From contig CAISUD010000020.1 of the NCBI GenBank assembly GCA_903888625.1, positions 1-38,585 on the forward strand: a stretch of 38,585 nucleotides of DNA, given 5' to 3'. Positions 9,328 through 37,420 of the stretch are shown one piece after another (position 1 is the first letter of the stretch; every line of letters begins with the position of its first letter). The notes under the pieces were generated by a model. That model saw nothing but the letters and a program-made list of their open reading frames with translations. It had not been told where the DNA came from and made no database searches. The position numbers were made by a program, and so were the translations under genes. This stretch comes from an uncultured bacterium. GTDB taxonomy: Bacteria > Patescibacteriota > Minisyncoccia > Phycocordibacterales > UBA9973.

Positions 9328-10320
9328 ATGGCAACCGAGATGGATCCCGTTAGAAGTAGATCGCCCCAAGGTGACCGTAGCACTCGTCTTTTGACGAGGG
9401 CGACTTCTAACGGGATGGACAAATTAAAGAGAGAATTTTTGGAATATTTAGAAATTGAAAAAGGTTCAAGTTTAAAAACAGTTGAAAATTACGAGAGATA
9501 TTTAAATCGTTTTTGGAAATTCGCTAACCCAAAAAACCCAAAAGATATTACTGATCAAACAGTTCGTGAATTTCGTCTATACTTAAATCGCCAAATAGCT
9601 GGCAACAATCGGGCCACCGGTGAAACTTTAAAAAAGAAAACTCAAAATTATTATTTGATAGCTCTCCGTTCATTTTTAAAATATCTAGCCAAGCGTCGAA
9701 TCGAAAGTCTACCGGCAGATTGCATTGAACTGGCGAAAGTCCCTGAACGCTCACTCGACCTCATTTCCCCAAGCGAACTTGATCGCTTGATGAATGCCCC
9801 CGAAGGCGAAGATTTGAAATCTCTCCGCGACAAAGCCATTTTGTATTTACTTTTTTCGACTGGGCTACGAGTTTCAGAATTGTGTTCCCTCACTCGCGAT
9901 GTAGATTTTTCTTCTGGAGAATTTTCTATCCGTGGAAAAGGTAGCAAAGTCCGAGTTGTTTTTATTTCCAATGAAGCTCGCACGGCTGTCAAAAAATATT
10001 TAGATAAAAGAAAAGATATGGATGATGCTTTGTTTGTAAAAGTTGGCGACGAAAAAGCCAAAACTGAGAAAGAGGGGTTGGCTCGTAGGTCTATCGAAAG
10101 AATTGTAAAATACTATGCCATCAAAGCCGGAATTTCTAAAAAAGTCACCCCCCACGTCATTCGCCACTGTTTCGCTACCGATTTGCTTTCCAATGGTGCT
10201 GATATCCGCAGTGTCCAAATGATGCTCGGCCATTCCAACATTGCTACCACTCAAATATACACTCACATCACCGACAAACAACTCCGCGAGGTTCACAAAA
10301 AGTTTCATAGTAGCAAATAA
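9328..10320 (+). CDS. Xer-type tyrosine recombinase
   Basis: SAM-like N-domain and catalytic HVIRHCFATDLL...LGHSNIATTQIYTH; alternative start at 9415. Confidence 0.95.
   Translation: MATEMDPVRSRSPQGDRSTRLLTRATSNGMDKLKREFLEYLEIEKGSSLKTVENYERYLNRFWKFANPKNPKDITDQTVREFRLYLNRQIAGNNRATGETLKKKTQNYYLIALRSFLKYLAKRRIESLPADCIELAKVPERSLDLISPSELDRLMNAPEGEDLKSLRDKAILYLLFSTGLRVSELCSLTRDVDFSSGEFSIRGKGSKVRVVFISNEARTAVKKYLDKRKDMDDALFVKVGDEKAKTEKEGLARRSIERIVKYYAIKAGISKKVTPHVIRHCFATDLLSNGADIRSVQMMLGHSNIATTQIYTHITDKQLREVHKKFHSSK
9344..9416. repeat. palindromic element family B (ATCCCGTTAGAAGT...ACTTCTAACGGGAT)
   Basis: 14-bp perfect terminal inverted repeat with internal CTCGTC-TTTT-GACGAG hairpin. Confidence 0.85.
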
Positions 10321-10348
10321 AAAACAAAAAACTAATATTTTTTATTTT

Positions 10349-10400
10349 CCCCTCTCCTTTAATAAGGAGAGGGGGCTAGGGGGTGAGGTTCTGTGAATTT
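10349..10400. repeat. family A repeat, copy 5' of the methyltransferase
   Basis: 52 nt, one mismatch to 11096..11147. Confidence 0.9.
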
Positions 10401-10416
10401 ATGCTATAATTTATCT

Positions 10417-11064
10417 ATGCAATACCACGCACATAAAAAATATTTTGAAACAGCTTACCAAAATGGGGCCGACATTTGGACTCGTTTTTACCAAGATGAA
10501 AAAGGCATCAAACTAACTGAAAATTTAAAAACTGGTTCTTTTATTCTAGACGTCGGTTCCGGCCGAGGACTTTTTGCCAAACAACTCGCCGAATCTGGTT
10601 TCAAAGTCATCGGCATTGATTTTGAAAAAAATATTGTTGCCAAAACAAATGCTGAAATAAAAAATTGGGGGTTGGAAGGAAAATTAAAATTTATGGAAGC
10701 CGATGTCCTCGATATTCCTTTCGCTGATGAAAGTTTTGATGGCATTTGTGATTTTGGCTTACTTGAAAATTTATATAGTGAAGATTGGGAACAATATGCA
10801 AGTGAAATAAATAGAGTTTTGAAACCTGGAGGATTTTATTTGAACGTCGCTCTCTCTCGAGAAACTCAACATTTTTTTGAATTTTATCCAAAAGGTTCTG
10901 AATCAGGTGACTTCCAAAAATATGGTATTCATTATCATTTTTTTGAAAAAGCTGAAATGGCGCAAATTTTTGTCAATAAACTAAAAGTAATTTCGCAAGA
11001 AAACAAACATTTCACCGGCAAACCCATAGATACAATTTTACTGGAAACTCTTTTTCAGAAATAA
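10417..11064 (+). CDS. class I SAM-dependent methyltransferase
   Basis: ILDVGSGRGLFAKQLAESGFKVIGIDFE; start chosen 6 nt after TGCTATAAT. Confidence 0.88.
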   Translation: MQYHAHKKYFETAYQNGADIWTRFYQDEKGIKLTENLKTGSFILDVGSGRGLFAKQLAESGFKVIGIDFEKNIVAKTNAEIKNWGLEGKLKFMEADVLDIPFADESFDGICDFGLLENLYSEDWEQYASEINRVLKPGGFYLNVALSRETQHFFEFYPKGSESGDFQKYGIHYHFFEKAEMAQIFVNKLKVISQENKHFTGKPIDTILLETLFQK

Positions 11065-11095
11065 AAAACAAAATATGTTATTTATAAAATTCTCC

Positions 11096-11147
11096 CCCCT
11101 CTCCTTTAATAAGGAGAGGGGGCTAGGGGGTGAGGTTCTATGAATTT
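11096..11147. repeat. family A repeat, copy 3' of the methyltransferase
   Basis: 52 nt, one mismatch to 10349..10400. Confidence 0.9.
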
Positions 11148-11165
11148 TATGATAAAATCAAACTA

Positions 11166-11237
11166 ATGAAAATAATTTCTTGGAACACCCCATACGAAAG
11201 CAAAGCTTCGTACGGGGCAGGAAGTGGTAAGGTTTAA
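11166..11237 (+). pseudogene. possible remnant of an ExoIII-family gene start (MKIISWNTPYESKASYGAGSGKV*)
   Basis: MKIISWNT matches the N-terminus of the intact gene (MQIISWNT); followed by palindrome CCCCATACGAAAGC/GCTTCGTACGGGG. Confidence 0.5.
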
Positions 11238-11272
11238 TTCAATTTATTTAATAACTATTTTCTAAAATTAAC

Positions 11273-12058
11273 ATGCAAATCATCAGCTGGAACACAAATG
11301 GACTGCGAGCAACGGCAAAAAACGGGCACCTCGCTCCCCTTTTTGAAAAATACAATCCAGATATTTTATGTTTGCAAGAAACCAAAGTAGAAGAAAGCCA
11401 ACTGCCAGATGAAGTCAAAAATATTCCTGGATATTTTTCTTATTTTTCTCATTCCAAAATGCGTAAAGGTTATAGCGGTGTAGCCATCTACACCAAAATA
11501 AAACCAGACAAGGTGGAATACGGTATGGGAATAAAAAATCTCGACCAAGAAGGCAGGATGCTGGTTCTTCATTACAAAAATTTTATGGGCATAAAAAATT
11601 TAGTCGTAATCACCGGCTATTTTCCAAACGGTGGACAAGGGCCACACCGCCTAGAATATAAATTAAAATTTTACACAGCATTTTTAAAATTTATTTTAAA
11701 ACTTCGCAAAAATGGTGAGCAAGTTATTTTCTGTGGTGATGTAAATACTGCTCACCACCCTATTGATCTAGCTCGACCAAAAGCAAATGAAGAAAACACT
11801 GGCTTTCTTCCTATCGAACGAGCTTGGATTACAAAGGTAATAAAAAATAATTTTATCGATGTTTTTAGGAAATTTTATCCCGACAAGGTCGGCGCCTACA
11901 CTTATTGGGATCAAAAAACTCGTGCTCGCGACCGCAATGTCGGCTGGCGTTTAGATTACTTTTTTGTAGACAAAAAATTAGCCGAAAAAATCAAAAACAC
12001 CGGCCGACTCGAAGACTATTATGGCTCTGACCACTGTCCAATCTGGATGGAAATTTAA
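11273..12058 (+). CDS. xth: exodeoxyribonuclease III family AP endonuclease
   Basis: MQIISWNTNGLRA, DILCLQETK, GDVNTAHHPIDLARPK, YGSDHCPI. Confidence 0.95.
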   Translation: MQIISWNTNGLRATAKNGHLAPLFEKYNPDILCLQETKVEESQLPDEVKNIPGYFSYFSHSKMRKGYSGVAIYTKIKPDKVEYGMGIKNLDQEGRMLVLHYKNFMGIKNLVVITGYFPNGGQGPHRLEYKLKFYTAFLKFILKLRKNGEQVIFCGDVNTAHHPIDLARPKANEENTGFLPIERAWITKVIKNNFIDVFRKFYPDKVGAYTYWDQKTRARDRNVGWRLDYFFVDKKLAEKIKNTGRLEDYYGSDHCPIWMEI

Positions 12059-12059
12059 T

Positions 12060-12091
12060 TGGCACATTTACGCCATGGCTGATATGTGCCA
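12060..12091. repeat. hairpin TGGCACATTTACGCCATGGCTGATATGTGCCA, copy 1
   Basis: Perfect 8-bp arms; related copy at 14409 with compensatory stem changes. Confidence 0.75.
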
Positions 12092-12108
12092 AGGAACACT
12101 TTGATATT

Positions 12109-12909
12109 TTATTTTTGAAAATATTTTGCTTGCCCTGAATTAAATTGATGGGCACCAAGCCATGCAAGTTCGAAAACTTTTTTTTGCGCATCGGCAATTT
12201 CTTTACTTTCAATCAATACAGCAAATTCTTCCTTCCAGGAAACAGTCAGAATTTTATTGTTATAAATATTTGTTTCAGTTGTAAAATAAAATTTATCACG
12301 AGGCACAGTTAAAGATTCTCGCAATTCCTCTGTATCATTTGCTGTTACCTTCAAAGTATCAGGATCATCTGGTGCAATAACTCGTACTTTAATATTTTTT
12401 GCTACCCTACGATGAAAATAATCTTTTAAATATTTTTCACCGACTGCTTCAAAAGCATCTGTCCCTACTGCATAACCGATAATTTCTTTTTCAGCGGTTA
12501 AGGTATCTTCAAAAACTTCTTTCAACCCCTCTACCCCTTCGTAATATCTAACTTTTGGAACTTCTTTTGCATTATAAAAAGAAAAAAGTTCTGGAATAAT
12601 AAATTCAACTTTTTCTAAATTATTTTTTTTCTTTTCTGCTTCTTCTCTAATAAATTTTTCTAAATGTTCCGGAGATTCAACAATGTATTCTTGTTTTGGT
12701 TCTTTGCCGGAAATTTTTACTAAACCTTTTTGAGACAAACTATCAAGTACATCATAAGTCGTAGTTCGGCTCACCCCAGCAGTTCTCGAAATCTTTGTCA
12801 CAATTCCTTTTCCAAGCGACAAAAGAGCCACATAAATAGCGATTTCTTTTTCAGAAAAACCCACATCTATTAATACTTTTTCTGTCTCATTTTTTAATGT
12901 TTTTCTCAC
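12109..12909 (-). CDS. TrmB-like transcriptional regulator (start revised from 13020)
   Basis: HTH ALLSLGKGIVTKISRTAGVSRTTTYDVLDSLSQKGLV; GTG start 6 nt after a consensus promoter. Confidence 0.85.
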   Translation of the reverse strand: MRKTLKNETEKVLIDVGFSEKEIAIYVALLSLGKGIVTKISRTAGVSRTTTYDVLDSLSQKGLVKISGKEPKQEYIVESPEHLEKFIREEAEKKKNNLEKVEFIIPELFSFYNAKEVPKVRYYEGVEGLKEVFEDTLTAEKEIIGYAVGTDAFEAVGEKYLKDYFHRRVAKNIKVRVIAPDDPDTLKVTANDTEELRESLTVPRDKFYFTTETNIYNNKILTVSWKEEFAVLIESKEIADAQKKVFELAWLGAHQFNSGQAKYFQK

Positions 12910-12915
12910 CCTGCC

Positions 12916-12944
12916 ATTATATACAAAGCCAATTCTGTTGTCAA
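12916..12944 (-). promoter_or_regulatory. consensus promoter TTGACA-17-TATAAT
   Basis: Perfect -35 and -10 with 17-nt spacer on minus strand. Confidence 0.85.
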
Positions 12945-13014
12945 CATAGACCGACAGAATTTTTACTAATCCAAATCTATCCTTTGTTTTTAAGCTATTT
13001 TGGACGATACTACT

Positions 13015-13042
13015 TGACATTCTATTTACATTTTGCTATACT
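13015..13042 (+). promoter_or_regulatory. promoter TTGACA-16-TATACT for the radical SAM gene
   Basis: TTGACA at 13015, extended TGCTATACT. Confidence 0.75.
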
Positions 13043-13069
13043 ATGGTTAGATTAAGGTTTTTGAAAAAC

Positions 13070-13127
13070 GTTTTTGATTGGTTTACCGGGGCAATACTAG
13101 TAGCCCCGATTAACCAATTTTAAAAAC
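13070..13127 (+). promoter_or_regulatory. long 5'UTR hairpin upstream of the radical SAM gene
   Basis: GTTTTT.ATTGGTT.A.CGGGGC / GCCCCG.T.AACCAAT...AAAAAC, ~20 paired positions. Confidence 0.7.
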
Positions 13128-13134
13128 AATAAAT

Positions 13135-13995
13135 ATGAAAACAGCAGTTCAATTAGTGGGATCAATGTATCCCTGTCAAAATGTACCAATGGTGGTATTC
13201 GGGAAAAGGTGTCCTACCCCTTGTTTATACTGTGGACTCTACAAGTATCAATTCCCTGCTGAAAAAATCATAGCAGAAGGAAAAGAAAAAGTAATCGAAG
13301 AAATGAGTAAACATAAAAGTACTTATTTCGCTCCCGTAACAGATTGTTTTCTACCTGAAAACAGTGACTTAACTCATAATCTTTTGGAAGAAACATGGAA
13401 ATTAAATCAGTTGTGGACTCCATTAGTGAACACTAAACAAATTATTCCTGGAAAAACGAAAAATTTAATCATCGCAAACAAGCACAGATTAGTCCTTCAA
13501 ATTTCTGTACCAAGTGTTGATGAAGAAATCATTTCAATCCTAGAACCTGGGTCTGCTCCAATTCCAGAAAGATTGGAAATGATAAAAAGATTAACTTTAG
13601 CTAGAGTTCCTGTAATTGTAGTAGTAATGCCCTGGTTTGACCTCGGAAATGCCGAAGATTTGGCAGAAAAAATTTCCAGTACGGGAGTTTTAAGATCTAT
13701 AATTTCAAACGGAATTCTTACTAAAGAAACTAAAAACCGCATGCTCAATTCTGGGAATCAACAACTTATACAAGTCGCTGAATCTGTTTGTTTTTCAAAA
13801 GAAGCAACTGAAAAAGGACTTGTAATTCCTCGCGAGCAAAGAATCGAATCCCTAACAAAATTGATAAATGCTTTTAAAAACTTTGGTGTAAAAGTTAGGG
13901 TTTGCATTTCAGACAATCATGACTTAGGAGACTCCGGACTACCCTTGTGTGGAGAATTCAAACATCATAATTTTAAAAGAAAGGAGGAAAGATAA
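13135..13995 (+). CDS. radical SAM protein
   Basis: CPTPCLYC (CxxxCxxC) and ISVPSVDEEIISILEPGSAPIPERLEMIKRL. Confidence 0.8.
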   Translation: MKTAVQLVGSMYPCQNVPMVVFGKRCPTPCLYCGLYKYQFPAEKIIAEGKEKVIEEMSKHKSTYFAPVTDCFLPENSDLTHNLLEETWKLNQLWTPLVNTKQIIPGKTKNLIIANKHRLVLQISVPSVDEEIISILEPGSAPIPERLEMIKRLTLARVPVIVVVMPWFDLGNAEDLAEKISSTGVLRSIISNGILTKETKNRMLNSGNQQLIQVAESVCFSKEATEKGLVIPREQRIESLTKLINAFKNFGVKVRVCISDNHDLGDSGLPLCGEFKHHNFKRKEER

Positions 13996-13996
13996 G

Positions 13997-14341
13997 ATGG
14001 AAGGATTATTGTTTTTCTGCGTTGCCTATGGATTAATTGAAACTTCAAATGCTCTATATCTGTTCAAGAAAGGCAAATTAAACGCAACTGATTTTATTAT
14101 TATCGGTTGCTGGGGAATTTTAATTTTTCTTATTGCAATTGATGAGTTTTTCAAGTGTAGATCAATCCTTGCAGACATTGATTATTGTCTGTTTGGCATA
14201 TCGTGGCTATTCATGATTAAAACACCATGTTCAGCTATGATTTTTCATCAAAAAAACAAATACGGGACACTGGCTAGAAAAATTATTTTCATTTTTCTTA
14301 GTTTGTTCCAATTTTTAACCGTACTTTTAAGAAACATTTAG
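13997..14341 (+). CDS. small multi-pass membrane protein
   Basis: Strong Shine-Dalgarno AAGGAGGAAAG and hydrophobic segments. Confidence 0.6.
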   Translation: MEGLLFFCVAYGLIETSNALYLFKKGKLNATDFIIIGCWGILIFLIAIDEFFKCRSILADIDYCLFGISWLFMIKTPCSAMIFHQKNKYGTLARKIIFIFLSLFQFLTVLLRNI

Positions 14342-14344
14342 TAG

Positions 14345-14378
14345 AAGCTCGACGAATAATTCGCCGAGCTTTTTTTAT
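14345..14378 (+). terminator. intrinsic terminator
   Basis: AAGCTCGaCGAATAATTCGcCGAGCTTTTTTT. Confidence 0.9.
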
Positions 14379-14408
14379 CCCCTCGTTCGCGATCAACGGG
14401 ATTTTATT

Positions 14409-14440
14409 TTACACATTTACGCTATCGCTGATATGTGTAA
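14409..14440. repeat. hairpin TTACACATTTACGCTATCGCTGATATGTGTAA, copy 2
   Basis: 26/32 identity to 12060..12091 with compensatory outer-stem changes. Confidence 0.75.
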
Positions 14441-14628
14441 TTCCGCTCTAAAATTGCAAATAATTTTCAGAAGCAAAAATATATTGATCTATAAATATTC
14501 GCTGCATCAATTAGAAAAACTCTGCAACAAATAGTGCAACAAATAGCTTTTAAATCATATAAAACCAAATTTATCGCTCATGATGAGCTATAAAACAGGT
14601 ACTTTTGAGCTATAGAAAACTCTTATTT

Positions 14629-15423
14629 TTACAACTTTATCAATTCAGGCTTGGCGTCTTTCCCAAACCACTTTTTGGAGAGTTTTTCTATGTTTTTGGT
14701 TAGGTCGGTTAGTAAAATTTTGGTAGTTTTTCCTTTTGAAAATTGTTTACTGATTTCTGGATGCCTCACAAAATAGTCTTTCAACTTTTTCGGCACAATT
14801 TCATCTTGAGAAATTATTTTTATATTCTTTGGTAAAATTTTTCTAATTTCCTTTTTAAAAAATGGATAGTGTGTGCAACCTAAAGCCAAAGCCTCGATTT
14901 TTTTTGCTTTAAATGGTTTCAAATATTCATTTAAAAATGGCACAGCTCGAACTTTCTCCCCTTCTTCTGCAAGTGGCACGAGCATCGGAGCTGGATTTTG
15001 AAAAATTTTAGTCTTAGTATTTAATTTCTCAATTTCATCAACAAAAGTATTCGAGGTTATCGTGCCAGCGGTTCCTATGATTCCAACTCTTTTATATTTT
15101 GCACATTCTTCAGCGGTAGGTACTAAAACTCCTAAAACTTTTCTCTCTGGAAAATTTTGCACCAAATATTCTTGCTGAATTCGTCGCAAGGCTCTGGCTG
15201 ATGCAGTATTGCAAGCAATTATCACAATAGCACAATTTTCTTTTTTAAATAAATACTCAACACCTTGTTTAGTAAATTCAAAAACGGCCTCGTGTGAGCG
15301 ATTACCATAAGGCACCCTTTTCGTGTCGCCCAAATACACATAATCATACTCTGGCATCATTTTTCGAATAGATCGAGCAATGATAAGCCCTCCCAACCCC
15401 GAATCAAAAATTCCAATTTTCAT
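14629..15423 (-). CDS. murI: glutamate racemase
   Basis: IGIFDSGLGGL, IIACNTASA, LALGCTHYPF. Confidence 0.96.
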   Translation of the reverse strand: MKIGIFDSGLGGLIIARSIRKMMPEYDYVYLGDTKRVPYGNRSHEAVFEFTKQGVEYLFKKENCAIVIIACNTASARALRRIQQEYLVQNFPERKVLGVLVPTAEECAKYKRVGIIGTAGTITSNTFVDEIEKLNTKTKIFQNPAPMLVPLAEEGEKVRAVPFLNEYLKPFKAKKIEALALGCTHYPFFKKEIRKILPKNIKIISQDEIVPKKLKDYFVRHPEISKQFSKGKTTKILLTDLTKNIEKLSKKWFGKDAKPELIKL

Positions 15424-15479
15424 ATAAATTTATCTTAACACATTTTCTTTTTTATTAAAATTTATGATATTATATAGGG

Positions 15480-16145
15480 ATGAAACCAAGTAGATTAGAA
15501 CAATTATCAGACGGAATCTTTGCCATCGTAATGACAATTTTAGTTTTCGAAATAAAATTACCAGACATGGCTCCTCATGTGAACAATCTAGAATTATGGC
15601 AAGGGGTAAAACAAATCTTGCCTTCAATTTTCAGTTATATTTTAAGTTTCTCAATGCTTTTCACTTACTGGCGTGCTCATCATTTTTTTGTTTCAGTTTA
15701 TGCCAAAAATATCGATGTGCGTTTAACAAACATTAATGCTATTTTTTTTCTGCTTGTCGGGCTAACTCCATTTTCAACTTCTATCCTTGGTAAACATTCT
15801 GAAAATGGTTTGGCAATAGTTATTTTCGGAATTAATACTATCTTGATCGGGCTCTGTCTCCGCTGGATGCGTAATTATGTTTTCAAATCTAAGACAATCA
15901 AAAATTTAGAAATAACACAAAAAGAAATAAACCACGGCACGATCCGCACTTTGATTCCAGTCTATTCAGCATTACTTGCAATAATTTTAAGTTTAATTAG
16001 CACAAAAATTTCTTTAGCACTTTTCACTTTTGCAGTTCTCTTCAATTTCTCTCAAACCAGCACCACGATCTTTCACAAAATCATCAAAACTTGCAACAAT
16101 ATCCTCTACGGCAAAAACGGCAAACATCTCTATAATTATGATTAG
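15480..16145 (+). CDS. TMEM175/DUF1211-family channel-like membrane protein
   Basis: RLEQLSDGIFAIVMTILVFEIKLP motif and TM helices; leaderless start. Confidence 0.85.
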   Translation: MKPSRLEQLSDGIFAIVMTILVFEIKLPDMAPHVNNLELWQGVKQILPSIFSYILSFSMLFTYWRAHHFFVSVYAKNIDVRLTNINAIFFLLVGLTPFSTSILGKHSENGLAIVIFGINTILIGLCLRWMRNYVFKSKTIKNLEITQKEINHGTIRTLIPVYSALLAIILSLISTKISLALFTFAVLFNFSQTSTTIFHKIIKTCNNILYGKNGKHLYNYD

Positions 16146-16153
16146 CAAACTGC

Positions 16154-17182: not shown

Positions 17183-17807
17183 ATTAGAATATTGCGAAGA
17201 TTGCTACAACCTCACTTGTGGTATAGGTTGTACAGGAATTCATAAAGGAGAATATATGATATTGAATAAACAATACACCAAAGAGGAATACTATAAAATA
17301 AAAGAACATATAGAAAATGAATTAAAAAAAGATGGAAATTTCGGACAATATTTCCCCATCGATCTCGCCCCTTATTGCTACAACGAAACCCTAGCACACG
17401 ATTTTTTCCCACTAACCAAAGAGGATGCTTTGAAAAGAGGTTTCCGTTGGCAAGACAAGACAACTGGCACTTATGGCAAAGAAACAATACCAAAAGGAAA
17501 AACTCCAAATTCGATAGAGGAAGTAGATGAAAAAATTCTAAACGAAGTTTTAGTATGCGAAGAATGCAATAAAAATTTCAGAATCACAAAATCAGAATTA
17601 AGTTTTTACAAAAGAATGCACTTACCATTACCCCATAAAGATTTTGAATGTCGCCATAGAGAAAGAATGTCAAAAAGAAATGGACGCGAACTTTGGCACC
17701 GCAAATGTATGAAGGAAAATTGTCAGAACGAATTTGAAACTTCCTACTCCCCCGACCGCCCGGAAATAGTTTATTGTGAGCAATGTTACAATCAAGAAAT
17801 TTATTAA
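17133..17807 (+). CDS. Cys-rich zinc-ribbon protein, C-terminal part
   Basis: MQISKCKNCSFVFYSNELEYCEDCYN...; continuous with the previous ORF if one G of the G6 run is removed. Confidence 0.75.
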   Translation: MQISKCKNCSFVFYSNELEYCEDCYNLTCGIGCTGIHKGEYMILNKQYTKEEYYKIKEHIENELKKDGNFGQYFPIDLAPYCYNETLAHDFFPLTKEDALKRGFRWQDKTTGTYGKETIPKGKTPNSIEEVDEKILNEVLVCEECNKNFRITKSELSFYKRMHLPLPHKDFECRHRERMSKRNGRELWHRKCMKENCQNEFETSYSPDRPEIVYCEQCYNQEIY

Positions 17808-18446: not shown

Positions 18447-18447
18447 T

Positions 18448-20076
18448 TTATTTTCTTACTCCGTGTTTAGAATGCAACTTTTCAATTTCCTCTTCTTCTA
18501 GTTTGTCCTTTTTAGTTTTACCTCTCTCCCCTAATGTCCTTAACTCTGCATCACATAAAAGATTCAAGGACTCTGCTAACTCAAGCAAATGTCCTTTAGT
18601 ATTTTTTGTTGGGTCATCAAGGACTTCCTCCAATAAAGCATTTAAAATCCAGCCCATTCTGGGACCAGGCTTCACATTAGCGTCTTTTATCAAATCTGCT
18701 CCATTAATTTTTAGCTGTGAAACAGAGACAGGGTCGTGAAGTGCTTCTTCTATCATGGCAAAATATTTTCGCAAACGGTATGGTGCTTCCTTCTTTTTCA
18801 TTCCAACTCGATCGCACTCACGGACATTCATTAATGCCCAAATATTTTCTTTGCCAACTTTTGTGATGATTCTTCGCACAGCAGAAAGTGTGATTAATTC
18901 TGTATCAGAAAAAAACATATGATTGCGGACAAGTTTTTCCACCAGCTCAGTTTCTTTTTTTGGAAATTTTAATCTCTCCATTATTTTTTTCGCCATTCGC
19001 GCACTCACAACTTCATGACCATAAAAAGTAAATTTTTTCTTGGCAGAGCGAGATAATAATTTTTCATGGTCTGGCCTCGCCTGTCCTAAGATAGGCGAGG
19101 AAACCCGAGGACCTGAAAAATTATCAGCTCCCTCTGCCAACCTCCTGCTTTTAGGCTTCCCAATATCATGAAATAACGCAGAAAGCCTTATTTCCAATGG
19201 CCAATTTTTATCTGCTGAATGTTGCAAAGCATAAAGTAAATGATTATAAACATCGTAAATATGTTCACCCCCCTGCTCGCAATTTATCCCATCTTCCAAT
19301 TCTGGAATAATATATTTTAGTAAATTAAATTTTTGTAAAAGTAAAATTCCAGTACTTGGATTTTTAGACATAATTATTTTTTCAAATTCATCTCGGATTC
19401 TTTCACTTGAAATATTTTTTATTAAACTAGAATTTTTTAAAATACTTTCTGAAGTTTCATGCGAAATAGAAAAATCAAGTTGCACTGCAAAACGAACTGC
19501 TCGCAACATACGAAGAGCGTCTTCATTAAATCTATCACCCGGCTCTCCTACTGTTCTCACCACTTTGTCCTTTATGTCTTCTTGTCCTTTATATAGATCA
19601 ATTAACTGTCCTTTAGAATCCAAAGCCATTGCGTTCCAGGTAAAATCACGTCTTTTAAGGTCATCCTCAAGTTTATCACTAAATTTAACCTCATCTGGAT
19701 GACGAAAATCACTATATTTAGCTTCTGTTCTAAAAGGAGTAACTTCGATTTGATAGTATGTTTCACAAGGAACATTCTTACCTTCCCCCTCGCCTTTATA
19801 AGGAGATGGCTGAGGTGAGGTAATTTCTGTTTCACATGGAACAAAAACCATAACAGTCCCAAATTTATTTTCATACACAGTTTTCTCAAAAAGTTCTATT
19901 ATTTCTTCTGGTTTAGCATTTGTGGTTAAATCCCAATCCTTTGGCTCCCTACCAATTAGAAGATCTCGGACGCAACCACCGACCAAATACGCCTGATACC
20001 CAGCTTTCTCTAAAGTTTCAGTTACATGTGAAACTTCTTTCGGGATATTTAAATTTTCTATTTGATTTAGTTTCAT
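18448..20076 (-). CDS. cca: CCA tRNA nucleotidyltransferase / poly(A) polymerase family with HD domain (start revised)
   Basis: YLVGGCVRDLLIGREPKDWDL, RRDFTWNAMA, LFHDIGKPKSR; two in-frame repeat insertions. Confidence 0.93.
   Translation of the reverse strand: MKLNQIENLNIPKEVSHVTETLEKAGYQAYLVGGCVRDLLIGREPKDWDLTTNAKPEEIIELFEKTVYENKFGTVMVFVPCETEITSPQPSPYKGEGEGKNVPCETYYQIEVTPFRTEAKYSDFRHPDEVKFSDKLEDDLKRRDFTWNAMALDSKGQLIDLYKGQEDIKDKVVRTVGEPGDRFNEDALRMLRAVRFAVQLDFSISHETSESILKNSSLIKNISSERIRDEFEKIIMSKNPSTGILLLQKFNLLKYIIPELEDGINCEQGGEHIYDVYNHLLYALQHSADKNWPLEIRLSALFHDIGKPKSRRLAEGADNFSGPRVSSPILGQARPDHEKLLSRSAKKKFTFYGHEVVSARMAKKIMERLKFPKKETELVEKLVRNHMFFSDTELITLSAVRRIITKVGKENIWALMNVRECDRVGMKKKEAPYRLRKYFAMIEEALHDPVSVSQLKINGADLIKDANVKPGPRMGWILNALLEEVLDDPTKNTKGHLLELAESLNLLCDAELRTLGERGKTKKDKLEEEEIEKLHSKHGVRK
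19041..19139. repeat. 99-bp palindromic element inserted in frame in cca
   Basis: TGGCAGAG...GATAA..TTTTTCA.GGTC / GACC TGAAAAATTATC...CTCTGCCA with inner CCTCGCCT/AGGCGAGG. Confidence 0.85.
19759..19843. repeat. family-A-like repeat in cca bounded by a 16-bp direct repeat
   Basis: TGTTTCACAAGGAACA and TGTTTCACATGGAACA start 69 bp apart; encodes ITSPQPSPYKGEGEGKN. Confidence 0.8.
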
Positions 20077-20091
20077 ATGAAACTTATTCTG

Positions 20092-20163
20092 TGCACCCGG
20101 AGGGATTCGAACCCCCAACAACTGCTTCGAAGGCAGGCATGATATCCATTTCACTACGGGTGC
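20092..20163 (-). tRNA. tRNA-Arg (anticodon TCG)
   Basis: GCACCCG/CGGGTGC acceptor, loop CTTCGAA, GGTTCGAATCC T-arm. Confidence 0.88.
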
Positions 20164-20343
20164 GTAGCTTATTTGATAATATTGTTGCACCTATAGTATA
20201 TATCAAAATAATATTTATGTAAATAATCCTTTAAAATATGGATAAAATATACAATTGCATTTGGCTTTAAAAACTATTATAATTAAAAGACATTTTTTAT
20301 TGCGGTCATATTATATAATATCATCACAATATTTAAAATAATT

Positions 20344-20625: not shown

Positions 20626-20641
20626 TGTTTCACGTGAAACG
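20626..20641. promoter_or_regulatory. parS-like palindrome TGTTTCACGTGAAACG
   Basis: 15/16 match to the ParB-site consensus TGTTTCACGTGAAACA; related sites nearby. Confidence 0.6.
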
Positions 20642-20674: not shown

Positions 20675-21064
20675 ATGCCAAAAGTTTTTACTTCAAAAAA
20701 ACAAAAAATAGGGGAAATTGGAGAGAATATTGCTTGTAAGTTTCTCGTGAAACAAGGTTTTTCAATATTAGATAGAAATTATACTAAAAAATGGGGTGAA
20801 TTGGATATTGTAGCTAGAAAATATGATAAATTATATTTTATCGAAGTAAAAAGTGTTTCAGGAGAGGGGAATTTATTATTGAAAAGGCCAGAGGAAAATA
20901 TGCATCCATGGAAAATGAAAAGAATGTCTCGAGTAATTCAAACCTATCTATTATCTAAAAAAATTACTGAAAATACAGAGTGGCAAGTTGATCTTTTAAT
21001 TGTTTATCTTGATTTAGAGAACAAAAAAGCAAAAATAAGAAGAATTAAGAACATAATCTTATGA
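20675..21064 (+). CDS. YraN/UPF0102 family endonuclease-like protein
   Basis: GEIGENIACKFLVKQGFSILDRNY...WGELDIVARKYDKLYFIEVKS. Confidence 0.93.
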   Translation: MPKVFTSKKQKIGEIGENIACKFLVKQGFSILDRNYTKKWGELDIVARKYDKLYFIEVKSVSGEGNLLLKRPEENMHPWKMKRMSRVIQTYLLSKKITENTEWQVDLLIVYLDLENKKAKIRRIKNIIL

Positions 21065-29030: not shown

Positions 29031-29062
29031 TAGGCTGAACTTTGTTCGGCCTTTTATTTTAT
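29031..29062 (+). terminator. intrinsic terminator of the 28.6-29.06 kb transcript
   Basis: AGGCTGAAC-TTT-GTTCGGCCT followed by TTTATTTTATTT. Confidence 0.85.
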
Positions 29063-29074
29063 TTATTTAAATAT

Positions 29075-30463: not shown

Positions 30464-30469
30464 TATATC

Positions 30470-30498
30470 TTGACTTTCTTATAAAAATATGCTAAAAT
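30470..30498 (+). promoter_or_regulatory. promoter TTGACT-17-TAAAAT
   Basis: Consensus-like boxes, TGCTAAAAT. Confidence 0.65.
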
Positions 30499-30553
30499 TT
30501 AAATAATTAAACAAAATCATAAAAACAGTTAGAAAATAATATATAATAACTAT

Positions 30554-33500
30554 ATGGCAACTGAAAAGGAAAATTTAATAGCAACAAAAGAAAAATTACT
30601 GGATGAAAGTAGGGTTGCACAAGAAACAGCAGACCAAGCAAAAAGTAAGGCGGAGGAAGCTCAAAAAATGGTTACAGAAATTTTGGCTCAAAAACAAGCA
30701 ATTCTAGACGCTGAAAAAAATAAACAAAAAGCAAAATATTCAGTAATTCCTGTTTCAATTTTAAAACAACAAATAAAAAACTCAGAAACTTATATTGCAG
30801 AATTAAAAGAAAAAATTTCTAAAGAAAAAGACCCTGAATTTATCAAAGAATATGAAAAACAAATAGTTGAAGAAAATGATTTGATAAATGAAATTAAAAA
30901 AGAATACGGAGAAGAAGTATCTGAAGACAAAAAAGAACCTGAAAAGGTTGAAGTTGATTTGGAAAAAGAAAGTAAAGAAGACATTGAAATAAAGAGGAAA
31001 CAGGCCTTGAAAGATTTTATCGCAAAAAATACTGAAGAAGAAATTGTTCCGATTGATAAAGAAATTGAGAAAAGAGATGAAGAAATAAAAAAATTAACTG
31101 ACCCTGTCATTCTCAAAACAGAAGAAGTGGAAAGTAAATATTTATCTCCAAAGGAGATGCAAGATATTGGGACAAAAGCCCAAAATGAAAAAGCTGAACA
31201 AGAAGAACAAAAAGCCTCCGCGCCAAAAACACCAGCTACTCCAGCAAAAATGCTGTTAACACCAAAAGAAAATAATATTATTACTGAGAAATTAAAAACA
31301 ATAGGGGCAAAGGAGGACGATTTTAATAAAATTCCTGAATGGGGCAAACTTTCATATGGAGAAAGATTGCTTGCTATAGAACAAATATCACAAGACACTC
31401 TTTCCCGCGTCAAAGAAATCGGTGAACAAAGATTCCAAGAAAAAAATAAAATTTCTTTCAAAAGAAAAGATTTTAATCTTGGAAGTTTTAGTAAAAAAGC
31501 ATGGCATAATATTGGTAAATCATTTTGGATTAGTAAAGCAGAAAAGGAAACACTTAAAGATTTTGAAACAGGAAACTTAAAACCAAATAGCGAACATATA
31601 AAACAAATTATTGAAAGAACTGCTGATATGAATTTAAATGTTGTTGAAAAAGACGGGCAAGCATTTATAGAATTTGTAAAAATAGATAAAAGTTTACCAA
31701 AGGAAGAACAAGAAAAAATACAAGCGTACAATGAAGCTGCAAATAAATATGCAAAAATGCCGGATGCTTGGAGAAATAAAAATGCCGCAAATAGTAAAGA
31801 CAAGGGGGTTTTTAAAAATAAAAACTATCAATACTTTTCTAAAATAGAAGAACTATACACTGAAGCTTCTACTCGATTAATGCTTAGTCAAAAAGAAAAA
31901 TTTACAAAAGAGGGGATGAATGAAAAAGAAGCTGAAAAACAAGCAATGATAAATATGGGGGGGAAAGATTTCGAAATTTCGATTATACAATTTACAAACA
32001 CAAATCCAGATGCAGTTGCAGAATTAAAAAGAATCCGAAATGAAAGTTCATATGGAAGATTGTTTAATAATGAAAATTTATGGCGTAGTTTATATATGGG
32101 AATAGGTTTTGGAACTAGGACTGCAACAAAAGCTACTCTTGGTTTGTTTGCAGCACCACTAGTTTCTAGTGTAATCGGTGGCGCGCGTGCAAGAAGAAAG
32201 GCTGGACAAAAAATTGACACGGCATTTATGGAAGGACGCACAACTGAAACATTTAAAGAAAGAAAAGAAGCTGGAAAGAGTGGTATGTTTGACGATAAAA
32301 ATGAAAATCGAGGCTTGATTTCAAAAACATTCACCGGTAAAAATATAAATGCAAAGGAAGTTGGGGCTTTCGTTGATGCAGACAGTCAAATACAAAGATT
32401 AGATAATCTAATCCAAAAATTGGAGCTTGCAAAAACAAATGAAGAAAAATTGTTATTAAAAGATCAATTAAATGCTCGTATCGGCTATATTGAAAATAAA
32501 AAAACAGAAGGACTTATAAATTATGGGACAAAAAATGCTCTCGGAACAAACTATGCACTATTTAAAAAATTAAGTTTGGCACAAGCAGAAGTAGGTCTTA
32601 TTGAGTTTTTAAATAAAAAACAAATTGAAAGACGTGAAACTTTACTTGGAAAAGTAATAGCCGAGAATGAAAGTACCTTAGATAACAAGCAAGCTAGCTT
32701 TAAAAATAGCGAAATGATAAGAGGTGCAGTTGTTGGTGCTGGAAGCGCTCTATTGGGCTATGGAATTAGATATGGTTATGAACATCTTGGTGATATTAAA
32801 GAAGCTATTGGGCTTGGTGGAATTAAACATAATCCTGAAGATATTTTGTCTGGTGGGGGAGCTACTGGGCATGGAAACCTTGATCATTTACAAAGAACCA
32901 ATATTTCTGATCATGTGAAACCAAAAGTTTTTGACCCTACAAAACCTGCTGGTGGAAACACTCCAGACAGTAACACTCCAACTACCCCAGGAATTTCAAC
33001 AACCAAAGGTAGTGTTGCTGAGTTTATGAAAACAAATTCTAACCAAAATTCTATTGACTTTGGAATGTATAAAGATGGAGCCTCAATGAATGTTCAAAGC
33101 GGAACAATTACCTTTGAAGATACCGCTTCTAATTATAAAGTTGATATTCAATATAATTCACGTGGAGCTATTGACGCTATTCAAAGATTAAAAAATGAAG
33201 TAATTAGCCACTATCATGGAGCTGAGAACGTTCCAACGACAGCAAATATCAACACTGAATACAATTATCTAGACAAGAGTGGTGTTATTAAACACAGTGA
33301 GGATGTATTAATAAAAGGAAATACAAACACACTAGGACAATATCAAGGTACAACAAAGGTTTTTGGTTCTGGTAGTAAAGTTTCAACCGGTACCAACACA
33401 ATAAACAATGCTCCTGGTAAAACAATTCCACAAACAGATATCAATGGTAATCCAATAAATCATATACCAGCAAAACCAACCGTACTCACTACAGGTGGGG

Positions 33501-34009
33501 CAACAAGTGGAGTTGGCCAAACAATCCCTCAGGTGGATATCAACGGCAACCCAATAAATCATATACCAGCCAAACCAACCAGTGGAATAAATACTATAAA
33601 TGCTAAAACAAATGGAGCAAGTAGTAATGTTGCTGAAACAAAAACAAGTGGAGCAAGTAGTGCTGATTTAAAAACTACTACACTTACTCCAGAACAACTA
33701 ACTGCTCAAACAAATCTGGAATATAATAATGCTCTTCAACACTTCTTGCCACGAACCAAAGATTTATCTGTTTGGACAAACAACATCGCTACATCACACG
33801 GAATGGCAGAAACAATTTTACATGAAACTACTTTAGACCCAAAATATCAACCAATTCAAGATCTTATGAAAGAGATTTATGAAAAAACAGGAATTGCACC
33901 TCTCGAGAGTAGTACTTTTGTCATTGGCACAACTCCTGAAGACTATATCAAAATGGGGATAGAGTATGCAGAAAAAAATAATATCACATTGGAATGTTTA
34001 AACTATTAA
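30554..34009 (+). CDS. very large hypothetical protein: coiled coil, two hydrophobic segments, Thr/Pro-rich repeats
   Basis: 1151-aa ORF; duplicated TIPQ(T/V)DINGNPINHIPAKPT. Confidence 0.8.
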   Translation: MATEKENLIATKEKLLDESRVAQETADQAKSKAEEAQKMVTEILAQKQAILDAEKNKQKAKYSVIPVSILKQQIKNSETYIAELKEKISKEKDPEFIKEYEKQIVEENDLINEIKKEYGEEVSEDKKEPEKVEVDLEKESKEDIEIKRKQALKDFIAKNTEEEIVPIDKEIEKRDEEIKKLTDPVILKTEEVESKYLSPKEMQDIGTKAQNEKAEQEEQKASAPKTPATPAKMLLTPKENNIITEKLKTIGAKEDDFNKIPEWGKLSYGERLLAIEQISQDTLSRVKEIGEQRFQEKNKISFKRKDFNLGSFSKKAWHNIGKSFWISKAEKETLKDFETGNLKPNSEHIKQIIERTADMNLNVVEKDGQAFIEFVKIDKSLPKEEQEKIQAYNEAANKYAKMPDAWRNKNAANSKDKGVFKNKNYQYFSKIEELYTEASTRLMLSQKEKFTKEGMNEKEAEKQAMINMGGKDFEISIIQFTNTNPDAVAELKRIRNESSYGRLFNNENLWRSLYMGIGFGTRTATKATLGLFAAPLVSSVIGGARARRKAGQKIDTAFMEGRTTETFKERKEAGKSGMFDDKNENRGLISKTFTGKNINAKEVGAFVDADSQIQRLDNLIQKLELAKTNEEKLLLKDQLNARIGYIENKKTEGLINYGTKNALGTNYALFKKLSLAQAEVGLIEFLNKKQIERRETLLGKVIAENESTLDNKQASFKNSEMIRGAVVGAGSALLGYGIRYGYEHLGDIKEAIGLGGIKHNPEDILSGGGATGHGNLDHLQRTNISDHVKPKVFDPTKPAGGNTPDSNTPTTPGISTTKGSVAEFMKTNSNQNSIDFGMYKDGASMNVQSGTITFEDTASNYKVDIQYNSRGAIDAIQRLKNEVISHYHGAENVPTTANINTEYNYLDKSGVIKHSEDVLIKGNTNTLGQYQGTTKVFGSGSKVSTGTNTINNAPGKTIPQTDINGNPINHIPAKPTVLTTGGATSGVGQTIPQVDINGNPINHIPAKPTSGINTINAKTNGASSNVAETKTSGASSADLKTTTLTPEQLTAQTNLEYNNALQHFLPRTKDLSVWTNNIATSHGMAETILHETTLDPKYQPIQDLMKEIYEKTGIAPLESSTFVIGTTPEDYIKMGIEYAEKNNITLECLNY

Positions 34010-34033
34010 TAGTATAATAAAGTATTGATATGA

Positions 34034-34134
34034 ATCCCGTTAGAAGTTAACTTTCGGGAATAAAAATTATAAATTAATCAAAGTTACCTAATGTATATTT
34101 ATAAAGTACTACTAGGAAAACTTCTAAACGGGAT
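34034..34134. repeat. palindromic element family B, second copy, overlapping the start codon of the next gene
   Basis: ATCCCGTTAGAAGTT ... AACTTCTAAACGGGAT with inner TAACTTT/AAAGTTA. Confidence 0.8.
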
Positions 34135-34429
34135 GAACCCAATAAAAAATAACATTATAAAAACATTGAATTTAGATAATCTTCCAGAAAGTGAAAAAGA
34201 GGATATTATCATTAGAATTGGATCTTTAATTTATCAAAACGTTTTAATGAGAATCCTCGAGACAATGCCAGACGAAAAACAAGATGAATTTGAAAAATTA
34301 TTAGATGAAAATTCTGGACCTGAAAAAGTTTTTGAATTTCTAAACACTAATGTAGAAAATTTTGAAAAAATAGTTACTGAAGAAGCAGAAAAATTCAGAG
34401 ACCGACTCACTATGACTGAAAAAGAATAA
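34133..34429 (+). CDS. small conserved-looking protein (DUF5663-like, tentative)
   Basis: MNPIKNNIIKTLNLDNLPESEKEDIIIRIGSLIYQNVLMRILE; start revised from 34091. Confidence 0.65.
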   Translation: MNPIKNNIIKTLNLDNLPESEKEDIIIRIGSLIYQNVLMRILETMPDEKQDEFEKLLDENSGPEKVFEFLNTNVENFEKIVTEEAEKFRDRLTMTEKE

Positions 34430-34456
34430 AAAATAATTTCATGCTATATTTAAAGC

Positions 34457-36553
34457 ATGGTTGAAGATCACTTAAAAGGCTTAAATAGTGCTCAACTGGA
34501 AGCGGCGACTCATACCGAGGGACCGCTTTTAATCGTGGCCGGAGCTGGTGCTGGCAAGACTAAAACCATCACTCATAGGATTGTGAATTTAATAAAACAA
34601 GGCATTGCTCCAGACAAAATTCTAGCTGCTACTTTCACCAATAAAGCTGCCAAAGAAATGCGAGAGAAAATACGGTTCGCAATAGCCCAATTCAAAAGCC
34701 TTGGGAGTTGCGACGGCGACGGACAGAGAAAATTTTTAGCAGAAAATTTTCGTGCTTTTGAAATGGGCTATTGCGAACCATTCGTAAGTACTTTCCATTC
34801 TTTAGGTGTATATATTATCAAAGAAAACTCACGACTAGTTGGCGTTACTAAACATTTCACAATTTTAGACGAGAACGATTCGATTTCACTGGTAAAAGAA
34901 TCTATTAAAGAATTAAATCTAGACCCAAAACAATACGAGCCAAAAAAAATTAAAGGCATTATCAGCCGAGAAAAGGGCAAATTTACTCATTTGTCTGATT
35001 ATGCAGAAAATGAAGTCAGCTATTTAGGTAAAATAGTCGCCCAAGTTTGGGATATTTATGAAAAGAAAAAATCTAAAGAAAATTCGCTGGATTTTGATGA
35101 CTTGCTTTTAAAAGCTGTAAAATTACTCAAAGAAAATGAAAATATCAGAAAAATTTATCAGGAGCGCTGGCAATATATTCATATTGACGAGTATCAAGAT
35201 ACCAATGAAGTGCAATATTTAATGTCAAAATTATTGGCAGGGGATAAAAAAAATATTTGCGTGGTGGGGGATGCTGATCAAAATATTTATTCCTGGCGTG
35301 GAGCAAATTTAAAAAATATTTTAAATTTTGAAAAAGATTATCCAAATACTAAAATAATAATTCTAGAAGAAAATTATCGCTCAACAAAAAATATTTTAGA
35401 AGCCGCCAACGAAATTATTAAGAAAAATGTTTATCGTCCAGATAAAAATTTATTTACCAAAAATAAAACTGGAGAAAAAATTTCTTTATATGAAGCTCTC
35501 GATGAAAACGATGAAGCCGATTTTGTGGCTGTGAAAATTTTAGAGATACTAGACGGAGAAACAAACGTTGCTTCGGTGGGGTCGCTGTCTGGGCTTGCTA
35601 GCCCAGCGCTGCCTCTCGACTCGTCAGCCTGCGAGACACCCCACCAAAGCAAGTTTATTCCTCCGTCTGAAATAGCAATTTTATACCGAGCAAATTTTCA
35701 ATCTCGAGTTTTAGAAGAAGCAATGTTACGCTACAATATTCCTTATCAAGTTTTGGGAACTAAATTTTTTGAACGCAAAGAAATCAAAGACACTTTGGCA
35801 TATTTACGAGCTGCTTTAAATCCAGAAAGTTTATCGGACATAAAACGAATAATAAATTTCCCGGGGAGGGGAATAGGGAAGACAACCATTGCCAAAATTT
35901 TTGCAGGTGAGAGAAATACTCTACCAATAAAAATGCAAATTAAAATTAATAATTTTTACGAACTACTTGAAGAATTAAAAGAAAAAATAAATACTTCTAA
36001 AGTAAGTGAAGTAATAAAATTTACGGTTAAAAAAACTGGCATAGAAACAGAACTTTCTTCTGGGACAGAAGAAGATTTAGAAAAATTAGAGAATATCAAA
36101 GAGCTTGCAACCTTGGCACTTAAATATGATAATCTTGAAAATGGAGCAGGGATTGAAAAACTATTAGAGGATGCATCGCTCGCTTCAGACCAAGATGGAA
36201 TTATGCTAGCTGAAAATAAAAAACAGACAACAAATGCTGTCCGTTTGATGACTGTCCACGCTTCAAAAGGCCTTGAATTCAAATACGTTTTCATCACTGG
36301 GCTCGAAGACGGACTTTTTCCCAACAACCACAATGGCGAAACAAAATCAGGCGAAGATAGAGAAGAAGAGCGAAGACTTTTTTATGTTGCCTTAACTAGA
36401 GCCAAGGAAAAATTATTTTTATCGTTTGCAAATTTTCGAACAATTTTCGGTTCACGACAAATAAATACGCCATCGGAATTTATCTCGGACATCCCAAGAG
36501 ATTTACTAGAAAAAGAAGGGGAAGACCCCGGCATTAAAACAATTTATATATAA
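34457..36553 (+). CDS. uvrD: UvrD/PcrA-type DNA helicase
   Basis: LIVAGAGAGKTKTITHRI, DEYQDTN, VGDADQNIYSWRGA, MTVHASKGLEFKYVF; leaderless start; two in-frame insertions. Confidence 0.95.
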   Translation: MVEDHLKGLNSAQLEAATHTEGPLLIVAGAGAGKTKTITHRIVNLIKQGIAPDKILAATFTNKAAKEMREKIRFAIAQFKSLGSCDGDGQRKFLAENFRAFEMGYCEPFVSTFHSLGVYIIKENSRLVGVTKHFTILDENDSISLVKESIKELNLDPKQYEPKKIKGIISREKGKFTHLSDYAENEVSYLGKIVAQVWDIYEKKKSKENSLDFDDLLLKAVKLLKENENIRKIYQERWQYIHIDEYQDTNEVQYLMSKLLAGDKKNICVVGDADQNIYSWRGANLKNILNFEKDYPNTKIIILEENYRSTKNILEAANEIIKKNVYRPDKNLFTKNKTGEKISLYEALDENDEADFVAVKILEILDGETNVASVGSLSGLASPALPLDSSACETPHQSKFIPPSEIAILYRANFQSRVLEEAMLRYNIPYQVLGTKFFERKEIKDTLAYLRAALNPESLSDIKRIINFPGRGIGKTTIAKIFAGERNTLPIKMQIKINNFYELLEELKEKINTSKVSEVIKFTVKKTGIETELSSGTEEDLEKLENIKELATLALKYDNLENGAGIEKLLEDASLASDQDGIMLAENKKQTTNAVRLMTVHASKGLEFKYVFITGLEDGLFPNNHNGETKSGEDREEERRLFYVALTRAKEKLFLSFANFRTIFGSRQINTPSEFISDIPRDLLEKEGEDPGIKTIYI
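34674..34779. repeat. 106-bp palindromic element inside uvrD
   Basis: 26-bp terminal inverted repeat GGTTCGCAATAGCCCAATTCAAAAGC with one mismatch. Confidence 0.88.
35563..35656. repeat. 94-bp three-way-junction-like palindromic element inside uvrD
   Basis: AAACGTTGCTTCGGTGGGGT ... ACCCCACCAAAGCAAGTTT with inner CTGGGCT/AGCCCAG and CTCG/CGAG. Confidence 0.85.
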
Positions 36554-36584
36554 TAGGCACTAGGCGTTAGGCTCTAGGCACTAG
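36554..36584 (+). repeat. heptanucleotide tandem repeat (TAGGCNN)x4
   Basis: TAGGCAC TAGGCGT TAGGCTC TAGGCAC TAG directly after the uvrD stop codon. Confidence 0.85.
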
Positions 36585-36592
36585 CAAATAAA

Positions 36593-37420
36593 ATGCAAAT
36601 ACAAAAACACAAAGCAAAAAAATCTTTAGGACAAAATTTTTTAAAATCAAACTTAGCTTTGAAAAAAATTGTTGAGGCTGGGGAAATTTCGCCTGACGAT
36701 ACGATTTTAGAAATTGGTCCTGGAAAAGGAGCTTTAACTGAAAAATTATTGGAGAAAAGTGATCATGTAATTGCAATTGAAAAAGACAATGCTCTTTTTA
36801 ATTTTTTAAATGAAAAATTCGAAAAAGAAATAAAAGAAAAGAAACTTATACTATTAAATGAAGACATATTGAAATTTTCAATTACAAATTACGAATTACG
36901 AATTAAAGATTACAAAATTATAGCCAACATTCCATACAATATTACTGGTGCAATTTTGAAAAAATTTTTGGCAAATAAAAATCAACCCGAAAGAATGATT
37001 TTGATGGTGCAAAATGAAGTCGCAAAAAGAATCATGGGGAAGGATGGTGAGAGTATTTTATCTATTTCAGTAAAAGCCTACGGAAATCCAAAAATAATTA
37101 TGAAAGTTCCGGCTCGGTATTTCTCTCCAGCCCCGAAGGTAGATTCAGCAGTGATAGCTATTAAAAATATTTCAAAGAAGAATTTCACCTTACTAGAGAC
37201 CCCCTCGTCCTTCGGACACTCCCCCTTAGCAGGGGGAGAGAAATTTGAAGAAAAATTCTGGGAAATTGTTCGAGCTGGGTTTGCCCATAAACGCAAAAAG
37301 CTTTCTTCAAATTTAAAAAACTACCTAGGCAACGCCTGTGTATTGGAATTAGGCAACAAAAGAGCCGAGGAACTTTCGCTCGAAGATTGGCTCGAACTTG
37401 TAAAAAATGCAGAAAATTAA
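36593..37420 (+). CDS. rsmA: 16S rRNA dimethyladenosine transferase
   Basis: KKSLGQNFLKS, ILEIGPGKGALTEKLL, IANIPYNITGAILKK; two in-frame insertions. Confidence 0.95.
   Translation: MQIQKHKAKKSLGQNFLKSNLALKKIVEAGEISPDDTILEIGPGKGALTEKLLEKSDHVIAIEKDNALFNFLNEKFEKEIKEKKLILLNEDILKFSITNYELRIKDYKIIANIPYNITGAILKKFLANKNQPERMILMVQNEVAKRIMGKDGESILSISVKAYGNPKIIMKVPARYFSPAPKVDSAVIAIKNISKKNFTLLETPSSFGHSPLAGGEKFEEKFWEIVRAGFAHKRKKLSSNLKNYLGNACVLELGNKRAEELSLEDWLELVKNAEN
37191..37245. repeat. palindromic element insertion in rsmA (peptide ETPSSFGHSPLAGGEK)
   Basis: GTCC-TTC-GGAC and CTCCCCC-TTAGCA-GGGGGAG hairpins in coding sequence. Confidence 0.7.

Follow-up and report, generated by a model that had tools for sequence, protein, structure and literature searches.

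Hairpin units with conserved tips and locus-specific arms in housekeeping genes of Parcubacteria, with a separate element at start codons

Palindromes interrupt several housekeeping genes in the 38,585-nucleotide (nt) stretch of DNA analysed here (the window), which is contig C20 of an uncultured bacterium of the Patescibacteriota, from a genome of 904 kb in 64 contigs that is 97% complete. The six palindromic features, in uvrD, cca, rsmA and xer, fall into three kinds: hairpin-tip units with locus-specific arms (families E1, E2 and E3), inserts that resemble repetitive extragenic palindromic (REP) elements, and an element at a start codon (the S family). The features in uvrD and at the second site of cca are probably mobile palindromes that are non-autonomous and come from several families, unrelated but alike in behaviour, with a mobile tip and locally made arms; the S-family feature at xer is a separate matter. 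An earlier note on this DNA had described at least six in-frame insertions, most of them different in sequence and all uniform in architecture, that behave like Rickettsia palindromic elements (RPEs). Its observation is partly confirmed and its interpretation partly supported: all six inverted repeats are present, close to the positions it gave, and they do belong to several unrelated families, but one unit in uvrD is longer than described (35551-35668), and three kinds of feature take the place of one uniform architecture.

Hairpin-tip units in uvrD and cca

The E units of the window and their host genes are as follows.

34457..36553, + strand: uvrD/pcrA host gene, with two inserts, both in frame, and intact helicase motifs
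34674..34779, + strand: E1 unit at uvrD site 1 (core 34700-34754, arms 34674-34699 and 34755-34779)
35551..35668, + strand: E2 unit at uvrD site 2 (core 35580-35640, left arm 29 nt, right arm 28 nt)
18448..20190, - strand: cca open reading frame (ORF), host of two inserts; the true start is probably the internal MKLNQIEN
19040..19140, - strand: E3 unit at cca site 2, with locus-specific arms TTGGCAGAG...CTCTGCCAA

We searched for the cores in 149 related genomes. The E1, E2 and E3 cores are mutually unrelated families that are common to sister species, and E1 and E2 also occur in other Parcubacteria families. Relatives of the E1 core were found in 58 of the 149 genomes (best copies at 83-95% identity), of the E2 core in 47 and of the E3 core in 8. 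Further copies, which the earlier note had expected if these are true elements, thus exist for the E cores in sister genomes, and the REP-like and S families are dispersed in the window's own genome. The E2-bearing genomes carry the titles Candidatus Nomurabacteria, Kaiserbacteria, Zambryskibacteria and other Parcubacteria. When 84,980 genomes were scanned with an E2 pattern, 85 stretches were returned; their identifiable titles are nearly all Parcubacteria, with none from Rickettsiales and one metagenome-assembled genome titled Burkholderiales. An E1 pattern scan of viral contigs gave no match.

The E1 or E2 unit is a hairpin of fixed length, about 114 nt in E1 and 118 nt in E2, in which the tip is conserved and the outer stem varies by locus, as shown by the pairing profiles, their sharp end and covariation. 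A core of 55-61 nt sits on a stem of 28-29 bp, the left arm being one nucleotide longer. The inner ~18 bp of the stem are moderately conserved, while the outer ~10 bp share almost no sequence between copies and yet are paired within each copy. Across 92 E2 copies, pairing outward from the core runs at 0.65-0.95 to position 11, passes an extra left base at position 12, and continues at 0.66-0.91 to position 27 before reaching a background of 0.27 at position 29; positions 20-27 are still paired despite having little sequence in common. E1 follows the same plan and ends at 29-30. Of 115 E2 copies, 88% have an arm-pairing score above the 99th percentile obtained with swapped partners, and 0.75 of cells form outer-arm pairs versus 0.44 after shuffling, with 369 double-change cells versus 143. 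Inverted arms that differ by locus were seen in all E1 copies examined and in most copies of E2 and E3; in cca, the coding-upstream arm of E3 overlaps native RRLAE codons.

Alleles of UvrD, Fmt, TsaD and Cca were collected from 80 genomes of the genus, and the site sequences were extracted from them and then scored as filled or empty. At one and the same gene site, some relatives have no insert and others have one from a different family. At least seven families occupy uvrD site 2, which holds an insert in 51 of 60 alleles, and site 1 is filled in 15 of 62; the TsaD site is filled in 40 of 59, and Cca site 2 in 32 of 60, leaving 28 empty alleles. At six sites, inverted-repeat scores are 13-19 for filled alleles, 7 for shuffles and 6-7 for empty alleles, the last being at shuffle level. 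Filled alleles are therefore palindromic and empty ones are not, so the arms come with or after insertion; insertion into pre-existing hairpins is ruled out, since empty alleles show no hairpin. The comparison with homologues that the earlier note had proposed gave the result it anticipated: the two uvrD inserts are precisely what PcrA and the empty UvrD alleles of the genus do not have, and many relatives lack the cca segments at 19040-19140 and 19784-19826 or have something else in their place. UvrD query residues 75-107 and 367-404, which are the window inserts, face 8 and 7 residues in the PcrA structure 1pjr. Separately, one internal stop codon was flagged in each of five Fmt matches (L198, L199, G037, G051 and G052).

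The claim that frames stay open and conserved motifs intact on both sides of the insertions held up, with inserts in frame and the UvrD helicase motifs invariant. Most copies lie within ORFs of at least 150 amino acids (83 of 112 for E2, 33 of 44 for E1). Within ORFs, E2 is found on the two strands in 42 and 36 copies, and 78 of 83 copies are read in the offset-1 frame of their own strand; the offset-1 frames of E2, on either strand, are those most often free of stops. Reading from both strands in a preferred frame does not suit an RNA role tied to one strand and speaks for loops that are translated and tolerated, which is also what we infer the insert peptides to be. The AlphaFold model of UvrD is mediocre (mean predicted local distance difference test score 67.6, 19 sequences) and gives insert 2 very low confidence, which is weakly consistent with a disordered loop. 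The further idea that the host proteins exploit the inserts found no evidence, E2 being read from either strand about equally.

Two other readings bear on these results. The fold of the E2 core is a three-way junction whose two hairpins covary (hairpin A: 94 versus 21 double-change cells), and a conserved core on a variable outer stem is the typical plan of an RNA family, as would be expected of riboswitches, ribozymes or regulatory hairpins with variable P1 stems that function in transcripts. We regard such structured RNAs as very unlikely here, given the near-equal use of both host-gene strands, the unrelated housekeeping genes that serve as hosts, and an Rfam search in which only tRNAs matched and no Rfam family covered the elements. 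It is scarcely credible, in turn, that the segments never enter protein, whether as translational-bypass elements like the mitochondrial byps or as inserts excised from RNA: mobile hairpins at high copy number in essential genes are what such elements look like, but full-length ORFs span the inserts, no internal stop occurs among the uvrD matches listed, and neither bypass nor excision would need the open offset-1 frames that E2 keeps on either strand.

Origin of tips and arms

E2 cores resemble one another by genome and outer arms by site. Core identity is 0.900 between loci of one genome versus 0.839 at the same site across genomes (0 of 2000 label permutations), and outer-arm identity is 0.432 within a genome, 0.553 at the same site across genomes and 0.350 for unrelated arms. 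L404 and L415, two loci of a single genome, share an identical core and have similar inner arms, but their outer arms are unrelated. The greater likeness of cores within a genome agrees with recent or ongoing mobility, and so with the earlier note's suggestion of an active or recently active set. In empty fmt alleles, VVAYGK is preceded by D-[LF]-F-[LI] codons. Filled alleles have these native codons in the downstream arm, beside VVAYGK, and their reverse complement in the upstream arm, in the codons that each genome itself uses; the only comparison between fairly close filled and empty alleles (G065 versus G077 and G067) shows both flanks partly resembling the empty allele. At uvrD site 2 and in tsaD, E2 occurs in both orientations between identical borders, and orthologous E2 arms have changed in sequence and kept their pairing. 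Because cores go with the genome, outer arms go with the site, fmt arms hold native codons and both orientations occur, we take the tip to be mobile and the outer arms to be local.

How this might come about can be sketched. A putative DNA-processing activity would recognise the hairpin tip as single-stranded DNA and place it in a target, and snap-back or template-switch synthesis would then copy one flank as the matching outer arm; the arms would thus be made from local DNA at insertion, or by template switching afterwards. Later template switching would keep the arms matched and flip the core in place, and within genes only in-frame, stop-free outcomes would survive. Template switching between inverted repeats is a known cause of arm homogenisation and spacer inversion (PMC8604942), and arm conversion and template switching have been discussed for coding palindromes (PMC6649704). 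We offer only tentatively, as a proposal that may well prove wrong, the more specific idea of a Parcubacteria mechanism that moves the hairpin tip alone and, at every insertion, copies about 10 nt of the target in inverted form to a fixed length, in place of a direct duplication, with several tip families in play and a start-codon-targeting palindrome besides.

The chief alternative, which we think rather unlikely, is that these are ordinary elements, like RPEs or miniature inverted-repeat transposable elements (MITEs), whose arms entered with the element and diverged later while template switching preserved their complementarity, with no special event at insertion. The co-evolution of orthologous arms, with unchanging borders and a core that flips, would suit it, as would the inherited arms in genome G135 and in Kaiserbacteria, and arm conversion and spacer inversion are already known processes (PMC6649704; PMC8604942). 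It does not sit well with same-genome copies whose cores are 95-100% identical and whose inner arms are similar but whose outer arms are unrelated, with outer arms that resemble the same site elsewhere, or with native codons in the fmt arms. It also predicts that the native loop should remain outside the arms, where 7-42 nt are left versus 36-66 nt in empty alleles.

Several results weigh against a mobile tip with locally made arms. Direct repeats flanking E1 and E2 show no excess over swapped flanks, so the insertion borders lack independent proof. Outer arms match empty alleles only modestly, at 7.8 and 7.4 of 10 positions in tsaD (nulls 6.9 and 6.75) and at 7.2 of 10 for the left arm at uvrD site 2 (null 6.4), and the matches in fmt and rsmA are not clearly above null. 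Simple length accounting, with 0, 1 or 2 added arms, yielded no single model that fits all sites. In Kaiserbacteria, constant CTCG motifs enclose the E2 arms, and Nomurabacteria RIFCSPLOWO2_01_FULL_42_20 (L415, L421, L429 and L445) holds an E2 subfamily with shared arms CTGTCCGGGGAAAATT and flanking direct repeats of 9-14 nt, as if amplified by another route; arms can therefore be inherited with the core. Homogenisation of cores within genomes was not seen for E1 (16 pairs), and much of the same-site sharing of arms may reflect vertical descent. No transposase or other mobiliser of E1 or E2 was found, and Y1_Tnp is absent from 14 of 45 E2-positive and 11 of 35 E2-negative genomes of the genus (31% each, by hand count), which is no association.

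The last result also bears on the idea that the units are REP elements mobilised by REP-associated tyrosine transposases (RAYTs, of the Y1/HUH type). The genome does have three Y1_Tnp genes, two of them with clear flanking REP hairpins that carry an AGGYCTTGCCT tip. We nevertheless judge this improbable, given that equal absence of Y1_Tnp with and without E2, the lack of any E1, E2 or E3 core beside the three RAYT genes, and units that end in no constant tetranucleotide.

In two tsaD alleles (L219 and L220), the same site holds perfect palindromes that have no core, GCAGGACTTTGCT..AGCAAAGTCCTGC and GTGAAGGACaGTCCTTCAC. These are either de novo inverted duplications or remnants left after loss of the tip.

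The start-codon element and the REP-like inserts

The remaining features of the window belong to the other two kinds.

9345..9414, + strand: S-family palindrome at the xer start codon, TCCCGTTAGAAGT...ACTTCTAACGGG, with flanks ATGGA at 9340-9344 and 9415-9419
9415..10320, + strand: xer with an apparently regenerated start codon, beginning MDKLKREFLEYLEIEKG
34034..34058, + strand: decayed S-family copy in a leader, ATGAA followed by TCCCGTTAGAAGT...
19784..19826, strand not assigned: REP-like GGGTGAGG element at cca site 1, peptide ITSPQPSPYKGEGEG, between two parS-like 14-mers
36593..37420, + strand: rsmA/ksgA host gene
37198..37241, + strand: REP-like insert in rsmA, peptide TPSSFGHSPLAGGE, with a related copy in ftsK of the same genome (L006:2954-2995)

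The feature at xer, which had been taken for an insertion in the N terminus of the protein, sits exactly at the start codon, with the ATGGA before it copied after it. S-family members end in TCCCGTTAGA...TCTAACGGG and have 11 exact copies in the genome, every one of which ends at an ORF-opening ATG and nine of which are preceded by the same five bases; with one mismatch allowed, the end pattern has 40 genome matches versus 2 for the reversed control. The first search pattern contained ATG, and the arms alone were therefore searched again across all DNA examined, which gave 37 palindromic units, about 27 of them ending at an ORF-opening ATG. Where ATG stands on both sides, the next two bases (the codon-2 dinucleotides) agree in 16 of 18 units, against a shuffled mean of 5.8 (0 of 100,000 shuffles). 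From these sequences, the S element appears to insert after ATGRA and to duplicate those five nucleotides, and it is this copying of the flank that would regenerate the start codon. The family may serve as a regulatory leader.

The inserts in cca (19784-19826) and rsmA (37198-37241) are in frame and lack the architecture of the E families. The GGGTGAGG family to which the cca insert belongs has 26 exact strict-pattern matches in the genome versus 0 for the reversed control, and intergenic copies of this REP-like family lie in the window at 4787-4838, 8516-8555, 8874-9026, 10349-10400 and 11096-11147. Flanking the RAYT genes (L018:1150-2050, L017:1300-2300, L019:1200-2200; in the window, 8932-8958) are hairpins whose tip, AGGYCTTGCCT, is constant and whose stems vary. 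They have the same tip-plus-variable-stem plan as the E families, and one is in frame inside the L019 RAYT gene.

Near the cca insert we also noted parS-like 14-mers (GTTTCACGTGAAAC and close variants with at most one mismatch), at 19829-19842, 20627-20640 and 20740-20753. Within the genus they occur at 44 of 60 cca loci (L242-L271, L332-L351 and L362-L371), in up to 7 copies, at a density of 0.48 per kb versus 0.007 elsewhere in the DNA examined (about 70-fold), and they are read as VSRET or VSQET in Cca. The cluster is a possible ParB centromere inside a tRNA-processing gene.

Comparison with known palindromic elements

To our knowledge, in-frame palindromic insertion in essential genes was previously considered peculiar to Rickettsia. 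It is common in streamlined Parcubacteria, where loops of UvrD, TsaD, Cca and Fmt have been refilled by many families, and the empty and filled alleles in about 80 related genomes provide a system for testing how palindromes originate, spread and reshape proteins. The novel parts are the separation of mobile cores from arms tied to their site, and an element that targets start codons and appears to regenerate them; neither was found in the open-access PubMed Central (PMC) papers searched, which also yielded no account of such elements in Parcubacteria.

Parts of the pattern are familiar from other systems. In mitochondria of Nematomorpha, perfect arms specific to locus and species lie inside translated genes, and template-switch arm conversion has been proposed for them (PMC6649704); a shared mobile core is not described there, whereas the Parcubacteria cores are dispersed repeat families. 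Like palindromes shaped by template switching, E2 units have homogenised arms and a spacer inverted at fixed borders (uvrD site 2 and tsaD). REP elements, bacterial interspersed mosaic elements and their RAYTs share short hairpins that are sometimes in genes, and this genome has RAYTs with REP hairpins of their own. The E units differ in lacking a GTAG or CGTC foot (Kaiserbacteria E2 show CTCG), in being 3-4 times longer, in their locus-specific stem and, for E2, in having no association with the Y1 transposase (PF01797) in 80 genomes. Bacterial MITEs are likewise non-autonomous dispersed repeats, and the 5-nt direct repeats (ATGRA) of the S family are like target-site duplications. The S family differs in targeting start codons, and E1 and E2 in having locus-specific outermost 10 bp, no constant terminal inverted repeats and no target-site duplication. 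Unlike byps, E2 inserts in open, strongly preferred frames, which suggests that it is translated.

The closest known elements are the RPEs. These, and the related Wolbachia palindromic elements, are palindromes of 100-150 nt in several families that lie in frame in metabolic and housekeeping genes, with different groups at the same site in different species (PMC3767692; PMC10969869); those of R. conorii have a CGTC tag at one end (PMC3733652). E1 and E2 units, at about 114 and 118 nt with 28-29-bp stems, lie within the 100-150-bp size of these palindromes, and they too enter ORFs without breaking the frame. They differ in that the E2 pattern scan showed no Rickettsiales host and that their sequence is unrelated, a distinction drawn without alignment to an RPE consensus. 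E2 ends share little sequence, and CGTC occurs only as the loop of an internal E2 hairpin. The conserved tip with locus-specific outer arms, and the flips of orientation at fixed borders, set them apart further, locus-specific arms not being described for RPEs in the papers cited. The likeness to RPEs drawn by the earlier note thus stands for behaviour, and sequence, host range and end structure rule out membership: the window elements are RPE-like in what they do, and are not RPEs by their sequence or their ends.

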